Part shown: one piece after another, positions 12,835 to 17,123 of the stretch
Layout of the letters: each line of letters starts with the position of its first letter
How positions within the stretch are numbered: the stretch's first letter is position 1
Assembly: GCA_938083135.1 (NCBI GenBank)
Contig: CALLKY010000024.1
Span: 1-64,000, forward strand
DNA from: an uncultured Alphaproteobacteria bacterium
Lineage (GTDB): Bacteria > Pseudomonadota > Alphaproteobacteria > Bin95
Length of the DNA: 64,000 bases
Direction: 5' to 3'
Position numbers and translations under genes: made by a program
The notes under the pieces: generated by a model
What the model was told of the DNA's origin: nothing
Seen by the model: the letters and a program-made list of their open reading frames with translations, nothing else
Databases searched by the model: none

Positions 12835-13760
12835 ATCGACCGGCCAATCGTATTCGTGAAGGCTTCCAGCATTTTGACACCGGCATAGGAATTCCCGTTG
12901 GCGTCGAGCGCCGGAGACCATACAGCGACGGTCATCTCACCGGGCACAACGCCAATAATCCCACCACCAACGCCACTCTTCGCCGGAATGCCAACATGGA
13001 ATGCGAAGCTGCCGACGGCGTCATAAAGGCCGCAAGTGGCCATTAATGCATTGATGCGGCGTGTTTTACGCTCGGTTGCGATGCGCTTGCCTGTGCGAAC
13101 ATCAACGCCACGATTGGAGAGAAATAGGCCTGCGCGCGCCAGATCCCGGCACGACATGGCGATGCTGCATTGGTGAAAATAGGCGTCCAGGACATCGTCA
13201 ACAGGGGATTCTAGATTGCCGTTGGCTTTGAGAAAATTTGCTATTGCAGCGTTCCAATGGCCATGGTCTCGCTCAGACGCGGCGACCTCCAGGTCAAACT
13301 GAATACTGTCATTACCTGAAAGTGCGCGGAATTGCTCAAGGATAGCCTGCTTGGGGTCATCATTATCGGTGACGATACAGTCGGTCGTAACATGCGCCCC
13401 GGCGTTGATAAACGGATTGCGGGGCACACCTTTTTCGTATTCTAGCTGAACGAGGGAGTTGAACGGGTTGCCGGAAGGCTCTCGTCCGACACGCTTCCAA
13501 AGCGCACGGTCGCGCAGCTTCATCGCCATAAGCAGCGTGAAAAGCTTGGAGACGCTTTGGATTGAAAATGGCTCCTCCGCGTCGCCCGCAAAGGCTTCCC
13601 GTCCATCGACGCAGGAAACCGCGATGGCCAGCTTTTCCGCCGGGACCCTGGCAAGAGCCGGAATATATGCGGCGACCTTGCCGGGGCCCATATGTTTCAG
13701 GCCGCGCTCCAGTACAGAATCGAGCACAGCTTGGAGGTCGATGTCTAATGTTTCCGCCAT
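12828..13760 (-). CDS. glsA: Glutaminase
   Basis: Glutaminase A of the serine-dependent beta-lactamase-like fold; hydrolyses L-glutamine to glutamate and ammonia. The start at 13760 (MAETLD) gives 310 residues, the usual length; the longer frame from 13814 would run through the terminator of the upstream cold-shock gene. Key features are the SxxK motif in FSIQSVSKLFTL, PFNSLVQLEYEKGVPRNPFINAGA, the Tyr-containing ASERDHGHWN region and KSGVGGGIIGVVPGEM with the catalytic-site Val/Gly loop. As a source of ammonia it may feed nitrogen metabolism or acid resistance. It is a single-gene unit. Confidence 0.95.
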   Translation of the reverse strand: MAETLDIDLQAVLDSVLERGLKHMGPGKVAAYIPALARVPAEKLAIAVSCVDGREAFAGDAEEPFSIQSVSKLFTLLMAMKLRDRALWKRVGREPSGNPFNSLVQLEYEKGVPRNPFINAGAHVTTDCIVTDNDDPKQAILEQFRALSGNDSIQFDLEVAASERDHGHWNAAIANFLKANGNLESPVDDVLDAYFHQCSIAMSCRDLARAGLFLSNRGVDVRTGKRIATERKTRRINALMATCGLYDAVGSFAFHVGIPAKSGVGGGIIGVVPGEMTVAVWSPALDANGNSYAGVKMLEAFTNTIGRSIY

Positions 13761-13794
13761 TGGGCCAGCGCTCCTGGGAAAAGTATCGCACATG

Positions 13795-13834
13795 AAAAAC
13801 GCCCCGGCCTGCACGATCGCATGGCCGGGGCGTT
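13795..13834 (-). terminator. Rho-independent terminator of the cold-shock-domain gene
   Basis: On the minus strand a 12-bp perfect stem (AACGCCCCGGCC / GGCCGGGGCGTT, 13-base loop) lies 28 bases past the cold-shock gene stop and is followed by TTTTT. It overlaps the extended glutaminase frame and supports the later glutaminase start. Confidence 0.9.
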
Positions 13835-13861
13835 GATCAGACTAGGCTGTAGCGCGCTGCG

Positions 13862-14758
13862 TTATAGAAGGCGCATCCGTGCCGCCATGGGGCCACGCGG
13901 GCCAGGGCGGACATCAATTTCGACAGGCTGGTCCGGCTGTAGGTCACTGATGCCAGCATTTTCCATGGCGCGACCGGGCACGTAAATATCTGGGCCGCCA
14001 TCATCTGGCAGGGCGAAGCCAAAGCCGCGCTCATAGTTGAAGAATTTCATCCGGGCGACTTTGGTTTCAAGCGGCGCTCGATCATCACGATTGCCGCCGC
14101 CACCGCCAGCATAGACGCCACGGTCACCGCCGCCGTAGCCGCCGCGATCCTGTTCGTATCCGGCGCCACCGCCGCCGTAGCCACCGCGATCTTGGCCACC
14201 GCCGCCGCCGCCATATCCGCCGCGATCACCGCCGCCATATCCACCGCGGTCCTGGCCGTAGCCGCCGCCACCGCCGCCGTAGCCGCCACGATCACCGCCG
14301 CCGCCATATCCACCGCGATCACCACCGCCACCGTAACCGCCACGGTCCTGGCCGTATCCGCCACCGCCGCCGCCGTAGCCGCCGCGGTCCTGGCCGTAAC
14401 CACCGCCACCACCGCCGCCGTAACCACCGCCGCCACCGTAGCCGCCGCGATCATCGCCATATCCGCCGCCGCCATAAGGGCGCTGCGGGCGTGGAGCCTG
14501 TGCGACTTCTTCGCCAAGTTCCACGATTTCCTTTACGGTGCCGACCTGCAAACCGCGTCGGCCCGCCACCAAATCACATTTCAATTTTGATTCCGGCGGG
14601 ATTGAGTCCCGCCCGACAGCCTGCAGTGAGGTGACGTGGATAAATGCGTCATCTCCGCTTGGTGTCGTTACAAAGCCGTAGCCTTTGACACTGTTGAACC
14701 ATTTTACCGTGACATCGACATCTGTCTCTGTCGGTTGTTGATCATCCTGAAAAGCCAT
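13862..14758 (-). CDS. Twin cold-shock-domain protein with RGG/GGY linker
   Basis: Predicted RNA/ssDNA-binding protein of 298 residues. Residues about 15-80 are a cold-shock domain ([15 protein letters not shown] with RNP1-like KGYGFV and RNP2-like DAFIHV). Residues about 95-229 are a low-complexity linker built from [16 protein letters not shown] and QDRGGYG units. Residues about 232-298 form a second, more divergent domain ([23 protein letters not shown]). Two-domain CSPs are common in alphaproteobacteria, but their linkers are normally short; this one looks like the RGG/GGY tails of eukaryotic RNP proteins. RNA-chaperone and condensate-forming roles are inference. The gene has a strong terminator and a long (over 400 base) upstream region, as expected for csp genes with regulated leaders. 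Confidence 0.88.
14075..14476 (-). repeat. Low-complexity glycine-codon repeat encoding the RGG/GGY linker
   Basis: About 400 bases of imperfect tandem repeats of roughly 15-30 bases (GGC/GGT-rich on the minus strand, CCGCCGCCA-rich on the plus strand) coding for [13 protein letters not shown] units. The repeat number is probably prone to slippage, so length may vary between strains. Confidence 0.85.
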
Positions 14759-15192
14759 AGCGCACTCATTCCCCGGGTCGGATCATCTTGCCCGCCCCCT
14801 ACACATACCGATGCGGGGAGGGACCACATCCAATATTCGCCTGTTCAGCCATTGGAACAGTGCAGCTCCAACGGCGCGAACAAAACTCGCTGCTTGTATG
14901 TGCTTTTTTACTGGCCTTGCTCTGAAAGACAATGCGTCTTCAGGTCTGCGCCGACGATGCTTAAGCGGATCGCCTGTTATTATACCGCACGCTTTCCTAG
15001 AAGCTGCGCGGGCACGCGTACTAAAGCCCTCAAAAAATCCACAGCGAATTTCCCTCCTTTAAGGTAGGGTTTATTGCACCAAAATCAAGTGAATTCGCGT
15101 TTGTTCTCATATCTTCATGCATTGCCCAAGATATAGGCAAAGCTGAAACCAAACACTTACTATGATCTAAGTTAAGGCAAATTATAGTTTAA
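14759..15192. other. Non-coding region upstream of the cold-shock gene
   Basis: About 430 bases without a convincing gene on either strand. It holds the promoter and presumably a long 5' leader of the minus-strand cold-shock gene (GGAATGAG lies close to its ATG), and the downstream end of the GST gene. The stretch 15060-15190 is AT-rich compared with its surroundings. Small frames here have no ribosome-binding site or coding look. Confidence 0.5.
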
Positions 15193-15216
15193 GGCCCTGA
15201 CCCTAGGGTCAGGGCC
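15193..15216 (-). terminator. 24-base perfect palindrome after the GST stop codon
   Basis: A perfect 12+12 base palindrome centred on CTAG directly abuts the GST stop codon (TAG at 15217-15219, minus strand). On the minus strand it is followed by a T/A-rich run (TTAAACTATAATTT), so it probably works as an intrinsic terminator; the near-zero loop also allows a cruciform or protein-binding site. The sequence GGGTC/GACCC recurs near 26375. Confidence 0.6.
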
Positions 15217-15840
15217 CTAAGGTAGTGGCGGCAGAAGTGTTGCTTGAAATGCTGGCCGCGCCGCTTCCGCCTCAAACCAAGCCGTGAGATTTGGCCGCCC
15301 GGTGCGCCACTTATCTTCCGGGAAGCGGTAATCCGCGTAATCCATGGCGATAACGAGCCCGATGGCGGAAACATCGCGTGGGCCTGTAAATGGCAAATTT
15401 GCCTCCAGCCAGTCATAAACCCGGGCTTGGCGACCCGTTTCATAGCTGAGAAAGCTGGGGCTGCGTTCGTTGACGGGGCGGCGAAGCTCGCGGGCGCGCC
15501 ATGCCAGGGATTCAAGCAGGCTTTCGGATAGTGACCACAGCCTGGATGCAGCCCAGCGCGCTGGGCCAATATCATGGTGGAGACGGGGGGCACCGCCCAA
15601 GCGATCAAGATATTCACAGATCACCGTCGAATCTACGAGCATCAGCCCGTCCGGGCCCGTGAGCGTTGGTACTTTGCCAAGTGCACTGACATCCAATACT
15701 TCATTTTCAGGCGTTCGCACGCGGGTGTTGAAGTCCTCCACCTGGTCTGTCAGGCCGCATTCATGCACGACCATCCTGACTTTGCGGGCGAACGGGGAGG
15801 TGGGTGTCATGTAGTGGCAATAGGGTTTTGCTGTGGTCAT
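15217..15840 (-). CDS. Glutathione S-transferase family protein
   Basis: Glutathione transferase-like protein, 207 residues from the start chosen at 15840 (MTTAKPY; the longer frame begins with residues unlike the fold). The N-terminal thioredoxin-like domain reads HYMTPTSPFARKVRM, with cis-Pro in GKVPTL and DSTVICEYL where GSTs have the Glu/Asp-Ser that holds the gamma-glutamyl group. The all-helical C-terminal domain covers about residues 85-200. The likely role is conjugation or glutathione-dependent reduction of electrophiles; substrate unknown. Single gene, ending at the perfect palindrome. Confidence 0.88.
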   Translation of the reverse strand: MTTAKPYCHYMTPTSPFARKVRMVVHECGLTDQVEDFNTRVRTPENEVLDVSALGKVPTLTGPDGLMLVDSTVICEYLDRLGGAPRLHHDIGPARWAASRLWSLSESLLESLAWRARELRRPVNERSPSFLSYETGRQARVYDWLEANLPFTGPRDVSAIGLVIAMDYADYRFPEDKWRTGRPNLTAWFEAEAARPAFQATLLPPLP

Positions 15841-15923
15841 TGAATCAATCCAAGCCGTTGCGTAGCATGGCGACAACTATCGCCTGATCGGGCGAGCGAT
15901 GCAAAATTTAGGAGACTCCAGCG

Positions 15924-17123
15924 ATGGACATGGCCTTTTCCGCCGAAGACGAAGCATTCCGAGGCAAAGTACGCGCATTCCTGAGTGAGGCGCTGCCAAA
16001 GGATGTTTCAGACAAAGTCATCAACGGGCGCCACATCCCGCGTGAAGACATCATGGCCTGGCATCATGCATTACATAAGCAGGGCTGGATCACGCCAAAT
16101 TGGCCGGAGCAATGGGGCGGCCCTGGTTGGACGGCCAACCAGAAATACATTTTTGACGAAGAAAGTTCCCTGGCCGGCGCACCACGTCCGATTTTGTTCG
16201 GCATTACAATGTGCGGCCCCGTGCTGATGCGCTACGGCACAGAAGAGCAGAAAAACTACTATCTGCCAAAGATTGCGTCTGGTGAGATCATTTTCTGCCA
16301 GGGCTATTCGGAACCGGGGTCTGGGTCAGACCTTGCCAGCTTGAATATGAAGGCGGTGCGGGATGGCGATGATTTTGTCCTGAACGGCCAGAAAACCTGG
16401 ACGACATCAGCCCATATGGCCGATTGGATTTTCTGCCTGGTGCGCACGTCTAGTGCGGGCAAGCGGCAGGAAGGTATCACGTTCATTCTGCTGGATATGG
16501 CGACCAAGGGTGTGTCGGTGAAGCCGCTGATTACGCTGGACGGCACCCATGAGGTCAACGAAGTGTTCTTCGATGACGTTCGGGTTCCAGCAGCAAACGT
16601 CATTGGTGAGGTCGACCAAGGTTGGACGGTTGCGAAATACCTGCTTGGCCATGAACGCATGGGCGGCGGTGCACTTGGCGGGGTTAAAAAGCTCCTGAGC
16701 CAGTTGAAAGACATCGCACGGGAAGAGGACGATGGATTCGGCAATGCGCTTTGGGATGACGAGACATTCCGCCGCAAAGTCTCCCAAACCGAAATCGAAC
16801 TGATGACCTTGGAAGTGCAGATGATGCGCTTGTTGTCTGCGGTTTCGGCCGATCGGGAGATGGGCTTCGAGGCGTCCATGATTAAGATTCGCCGGTCTGA
16901 GATTTTGCAGCGGCTGACAGAGTTGAAAATGGAAGCCGTGGGGTATTATTCCTCGCCTTATATCAAGGCGGCCTTGACGGAGCGGTGGAACGAGGAGCCG
17001 ATTGGCGCTGAATACGCCAATTCCCAGACGCCGCAGTATCTTAACAACCGCAAGCATTCGATCTTCGCCGGATCAAATGAGATTCAGCACAATATTATTG
17101 CAAAACGCATGCTTGGACTATAA
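15924..17123 (+). CDS. Acyl-CoA dehydrogenase family protein
   Basis: FAD-dependent enzyme of 399 residues that makes an alpha-beta double bond in an acyl-CoA. A good AGGAGA site precedes the ATG. The order is the usual N-terminal helical domain (to about 120), beta domain with the FAD-binding CQGYSEPGSGSDLA and TWTTSAHMADWIF motifs, and C-terminal helical domain ending in FAGSNEIQHNIIAKRMLGL. It closely resembles the genes at 20775 and 21976, which lie on the far side of a TRAP transporter operon. In heteromeric acyl-CoA dehydrogenases of sterol and cyclic-acid pathways, this long type pairs with a shorter partner such as the one at 23269. Substrate unknown. Confidence 0.92.
   Translation: MDMAFSAEDEAFRGKVRAFLSEALPKDVSDKVINGRHIPREDIMAWHHALHKQGWITPNWPEQWGGPGWTANQKYIFDEESSLAGAPRPILFGITMCGPVLMRYGTEEQKNYYLPKIASGEIIFCQGYSEPGSGSDLASLNMKAVRDGDDFVLNGQKTWTTSAHMADWIFCLVRTSSAGKRQEGITFILLDMATKGVSVKPLITLDGTHEVNEVFFDDVRVPAANVIGEVDQGWTVAKYLLGHERMGGGALGGVKKLLSQLKDIAREEDDGFGNALWDDETFRRKVSQTEIELMTLEVQMMRLLSAVSADREMGFEASMIKIRRSEILQRLTELKMEAVGYYSSPYIKAALTERWNEEPIGAEYANSQTPQYLNNRKHSIFAGSNEIQHNIIAKRMLGL

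Follow-up and report, generated by a model that had tools for sequence, protein, structure and literature searches.

A long RGG/GGY-rich linker between two cold-shock domains of an alphaproteobacterial protein

The csp locus and the architecture of its product

The window analysed here, a 64,000-nt stretch from the genome of an uncultured alphaproteobacterium, contains an intact 298-aa ORF with an ATG start that encodes a protein with two cold-shock domains (CSDs; Table 1). Pfam family PF00313 matches it twice with a total of 73.6 bits (gathering cut-off 27), and in a genome-wide profile search each CSD alone lies above the cut-off (41.1 and 38.5 bits), while elsewhere in the 4.15-Mb genome the family is found in two ordinary single-CSD genes. 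An AlphaFold model, for which 19 aligned proteins from the window and the loci served as input, gives both CSDs with confidence (pLDDT about 96, mostly 95-98) and residues 88-222 between them as disordered (about 39). The top Foldseek matches of the model are CspA, CspB/CspE and Y-box CSDs, several of them nucleic-acid complexes. ORF, Pfam and AlphaFold model together confirm the first-pass annotation of two CSDs with a GGY/RGG stretch between them, and place both domains in one ORF, as in proteins of the CspC/CspD type; the linker length proposed there, about 135 residues, is close to that of the 129-aa core, the distance between the domain edges being 155 aa. Assignments to NCBIfam equivalogs were rejected for CspE (best score 83.6 bits, cut-off 120), CspD (TIGR02381; 60.2 bits, cut-off 115.4) and CspA (whole-protein score under the cut-off). 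Long Ala/Thr/Val-rich ORFs overlap the linker in other frames (14047-14517 on the minus and 14192-14590 on the plus strand); they were rejected as genes, since the GGN/GAY/TAY codon pattern gives rise to them incidentally.

Table 1. Features of the csp locus, in positions of the window.
Feature	Position	Strand	Evidence
Two-CSD protein gene	13862..14758	-	ORF; Pfam CSD twice; AlphaFold model
CSD1, residues 17-74	14537..14710 (14534-14710 in the genome-wide profile search)	-	VKWFN, KGYGF and DAFIH all kept; PF00313
RGG/GGY low-complexity linker core, residues 94-222	14093..14479	-	63% Gly; nine DRGGY; pLDDT about 39
CSD2, residues 236-295	13874..14053 (13874-14050 in the genome-wide profile search)	-	MKFFN, RGFGF, DIYVP; PF00313
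Probable intrinsic terminator of the csp gene	13793..13834	-	GCCCCGGCC stem, then UUUUU
Perfect 14-bp GC-rich hairpin over the GST stop codon	15189..15220	-	Terminator-like in consensus scan; z -5.1

The 80-nt stretch at the hairpin 3' of the csp gene folds with -38.4 kcal/mol (z -3.9), although this hairpin is absent from the list of the consensus terminator scan. The hairpin over the GST stop codon is probably the terminator of this upstream gene, and the two hairpins taken together suggest that csp probably forms a separate transcription unit. The order acyl-CoA dehydrogenase, GST, csp (recorded for 15217-17123 of the window) is kept in 4/4 genus members examined, GST and csp sharing one strand. 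No counterpart of the glutaminase downstream of the window gene turned up in those flanks of the relatives that were examined. No RNA family of Rfam was detected in 13500-15300, and an upstream alignment of four genus members revealed nothing conserved beyond the coding start; we therefore claim no cspA-like 5'-UTR switch.

Nucleic-acid contact residues of the two domains

The residues of both CSDs at the positions which we take to be the nucleic-acid contacts of B. subtilis CspB, whose numbering is used here, were compared over 173 two-CSD relatives. In CSD1, K7, W8, K13, F17 and H29 are near invariant, with F30 as the exception, and the window CSD1 likewise keeps all contact residues except F30, with Y at position F15. 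The window CSD2 retains K7, F9, F15 and F17 and is changed at four positions (W8 to F, K13 to R, F27 to Y and H29 to P). The first of these changes is present in 69 of the 173 proteins; the proline occurs in 6/173 and is common to the genus. The RNP1/RNP2 aromatic platform for nucleic acids that is expected of PF00313 was present in this comparison. The second domain is as divergent as had been noted, yet still a good CSD, and the substitutions at W8 and H29 possibly point to an altered binding mode without implying a loss of binding.

Linker length and type across Alphaproteobacteria

The three nearest relatives, all MAGs of the same genus (VMCJ01000005.1, JAURGE010000003.1 and CALAHN010000050.1), carry an RGG/GGY linker, shorter than that of the window wherever it can be measured (81 aa in G002); in G001 (C63/C90) and G004 (C50/C69) the contigs end inside the linker repeat. 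No orthologue was found in a fourth, less complete genome of the genus (G003). In G013, which belongs to another genus of the family, the linker is of the DRGGF type and 90 aa long, and yet another genus of this family encodes a triple-CSD protein with short, Gly-poor linkers (L019, 1407-2292, +; L136, 943-1834, +).

In a class-wide draw, CSD1 relatives were present in 295/385 genomes. In all, 187 distinct two-CSD ORFs of Alphaproteobacteria were collected from some 100 retrieved regions, 80 named loci and the loci of the search. In this sample, which is biased to proteins with a window-like CSD1, linker length ranges from 11 to 155 aa (median 36, 95th percentile 81), the window protein having the longest. 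The proposal of a disordered RGG/GGY linker joining two CSDs is therefore supported, with a length of 155 aa against a class median of 36 aa. The class-wide search for CSD pairs with Gly-rich linkers that the first-pass annotation had suggested returned 41 such proteins among the 187, a linker being counted as Gly-rich with at least 30% Gly and at least 40 aa. Its reservation that the linker might be the normal state of close relatives holds at the genus level, given the genus relatives and the 41/187 Gly-rich cases: the window linker is exceptional in length, not in kind, and since similar, shorter linkers recur across Alphaproteobacteria, the protein is an extreme member of a series rather than a one-off.

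The repeat units of Gly-rich linkers vary by lineage (DRGGY/F, DRFGGG, SYGGG). Carriers include Azospirillum, Tistlia consotensis and Rhizomicrobium, which, like further alphaproteobacterial carriers, share the architecture of the window protein, but their linkers are 39-90 aa long and built of other units, among them GGGDRFGGGDRF, and position H29 of their CSD2 is usually H or S, where the window has P. About 23 changes of the Gly-rich state are needed on a tree of the CSDs only, compared with a mean of 35 after shuffling, and no fewer than 6 are imposed by strongly supported branches. Given the fact that this tree rests on 130 columns and is poorly resolved, we limit the claim to a Gly-rich state that is recurrent but clustered. 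In a phylum-wide sample, among the matches listed, all that span both CSDs fall in the same class and the others are single-CSD matches, which agrees with PMC4551563, where it is stated that no other groups had been found to have a CSD duplication.

Composition of the linker

The linker core comprises 81 G, 17 Y, 10 R and 11 D among its 129 residues, lacks Lys, and contains nine RGG, so that repeated RGG motifs and aromatics coincide with the predicted disorder. The motif CGNGGNGGNTWYGGNGG occurs in nine copies in the genome, all inside the csp gene. Over the 41 Gly-rich linkers, Lys makes up 1% of Lys plus Arg, versus 64% in CSD1 and 45% in CSD2 of the same proteins, and aromatics account for 9% of the residues. 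Their net charge is -0.4 +/- 1.7; they stay near neutral because Arg and acidic residues increase jointly (rho 0.87). The remaining linkers of the set are likewise Lys-poor (6% Lys among basic residues), and Lys avoidance therefore differs between the linker classes by degree only. These data support the view that the window linker, in its content of Arg, aromatics and Gly, is composed like tracts that are linked to RNA binding and condensation.

In its DRGGY/RGG units with Gly spacers the tract resembles the RGG tracts of the FUS/TAF15 type, from which it differs in being net neutral; the likeness to TAF15 we take as a lead only. The sole match of the linker among PDB sequences was a FUS RGG fragment (7cyl_B) with a non-significant E of 0.6, and we therefore speak of a likeness of composition and claim no homology to RGG proteins.

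Age of the repeat and selection on the peptide

The linker DNA contains 15 repeated segments, 15/15 of them at offsets divisible by three, whereas codon-shuffled linkers contain 1.1 on average and 6 at most. Between in-frame segments, mismatches fall on 18/293 first, 28/290 second and 108/290 third codon positions, a count that is free of any choice by peptide. When the nine DRGGYGGG units are compared in 36 pairs, they differ at 125 nucleotides, every one of them at a third position and together amounting to about 43% of these positions, a result that is partly built in, as the units were picked by peptide and the pairs are non-independent. The linker is genuine coding sequence. In-frame offsets and third-position divergence indicate a repeat that was born by in-frame duplication and has since aged while its amino acids were held, and such a distribution over codon positions speaks for selection on the protein sequence of the linker.

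The earlier suggestion that linker length is tuned by repeat slippage can be kept in part. Units diverged at about 43% of their third positions speak against fresh slippage in the window copy. In many cases units resemble one another more closely within a species than across species. This is clearest in G002, where they are near-identical (0.979 within the species versus 0.823 in comparison with the window), and the window shows it least; near-identical units and differing lengths in G002 and other relatives indicate that block duplication does alter the length between species.

Proposed function and alternative explanations

CSDs bind single-stranded RNA transiently and act as RNA chaperones. 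The reading that we favour, with moderate confidence, is that the window protein is a double-CSD RNA chaperone of the CspC/CspD type whose disordered linker adds weak, multivalent contacts with RNA and with itself. It is supported by the architecture, the predicted disorder, the maintained repeat peptide and a composition that recurs in relatives. The two OB-fold CSDs would bind single-stranded RNA weakly and transiently, and the near-neutral Arg/Tyr/Gly linker would tether them such that they could contact distinct sites of a single RNA or link two RNA molecules; Arg and Tyr of the linker might make weak contacts with RNA and with other linkers. In the cold or during starvation, avidity would be raised and the protein could concentrate with RNA in RNP assemblies. 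We infer RNA binding and chaperoning from knowledge of the family, and the multivalent RNA and self-contacts from composition; droplet formation by the protein is plausible by analogy. Several points weigh against this reading. Most two-CSD relatives work with short linkers, so the core function does not depend on a long one, and since an Asp beside each Arg neutralises the linker, simple attraction to RNA should be weaker than in cationic FUS-type RGG tracts. Moreover, since tandem duplication by itself copies composition, the rise of Arg and aromatics with length cannot count as an independent sign of selection on stickers.

Among the closest described systems are CspC and CspD of Caulobacter crescentus, which belong to the same class and to the RNA-binding cold-shock family, and which have two CSDs per polypeptide and a role in stationary phase (PMC4551563, PMC4830024). 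The passages on these proteins mention no Gly-rich linker, the comparison being one by description and not by alignment, and the stationary-phase induction and SpdR control that they report are features of the Caulobacter proteins. The plant protein AtGRP2 likewise combines a CSD with a disordered Gly/Arg-rich region and phase-separates in vitro in an Arg-dependent manner (PMC13261584); it differs in having a single CSD and, at its C terminus, a glycine-rich region with CCHC zinc finger(s), while the window protein has no zinc finger and carries its tract between two CSDs. Deletion of the glycine-rich domain hardly affects the phase behaviour of AtGRP2, for which zinc knuckles and Arg matter more (PMC13261584), a reason for caution, as glycine-rich tracts need not always drive condensation.

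Alternatively, the linker might be only a flexible entropic tether that drifts in length as a Gly-rich seed is duplicated, with Arg, Tyr and Asp as passengers that serve solubility and protease tolerance. We regard this as possible but on the whole doubtful. Length is indeed continuous from 11 to 155 aa on otherwise similar CSDs, the type of unit depends on the lineage, and the frequent likeness of units within species is what lineage-specific duplication predicts. However, with codon positions 1 and 2 conserved between units and position 3 widely diverged, residues have been kept after duplication, and the preference for Arg over Lys and the aromatics recur with unrelated unit types.

That the linker is a functionless by-product of the instability of GC-rich triplets seems improbable. 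Its DNA is repetitive, with 74% GC, and linker length shows a weak correlation with the GC content of the flanks (rho 0.30, 187 loci), but the longest linker, that of the window, lies at a modest flank GC of 0.55, under the 25th percentile of the sample (0.59), and G002 has such a linker at 0.48; the in-frame offsets, the mostly third-position substitutions and the selection on the protein that they suggest also speak against it. Least credible of all is that the linker length is an assembly product by collapse or false expansion, since, although contigs of G001 and G004 stop within the repeat, so that short-read assembly is unreliable at the linker, and TRF finds a period of about 100 bp, the frame is open across all units with many distinct third-position changes, intact orthologues with a like linker exist in G002 and G013, and collapse shortens linkers and does not create them. 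As the short-read assemblies of two relatives break exactly in the repeat (L007, L013, L006, L016), counts of such Gly-rich linkers from draft genomes are probably too low.

A wider version of the favoured chaperone reading is more speculative, and we put it forward as unlikely enough to be held very tentatively: Alphaproteobacteria may repeatedly have evolved, from a two-CSD chaperone, a eukaryote-like Arg/aromatic/Gly linker that makes it a scaffold of RNA condensates responding to temperature or starvation, the threshold for condensation being set by the length of the linker and the window protein being the most extreme case in the sample. To our knowledge, RGG/GGY tracts are regarded as a eukaryotic feature. 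The open-licence literature searched yielded no account of a bacterial cold-shock protein with a Gly-rich linker, nor of double-CSD proteins from bacteria with RGG/GGY linkers, and two-CSD proteins with Gly-rich linkers apparently represent a widespread, undescribed variant in Alphaproteobacteria. Linkers of 11-155 residues on a constant two-domain chassis would offer a natural bacterial series for the effects of length and Arg/aromatic content on RNA affinity and condensation, and a simple model of how such tracts originate through duplication and are subsequently maintained by selection. The protein is also a candidate member of the bacterial condensate proteins linked to cold, a list that is growing and includes IF2 with its N-terminal disordered region (preprint, PMC11838494).

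As to the genomic setting of the set, two-CSD genes of Azospirillum are located on the large plasmids NZ_CP029833.1, NC_016587.1 and NZ_CP054617.1, and some other plasmid records of this genus contain a match with no listed gene beneath it.
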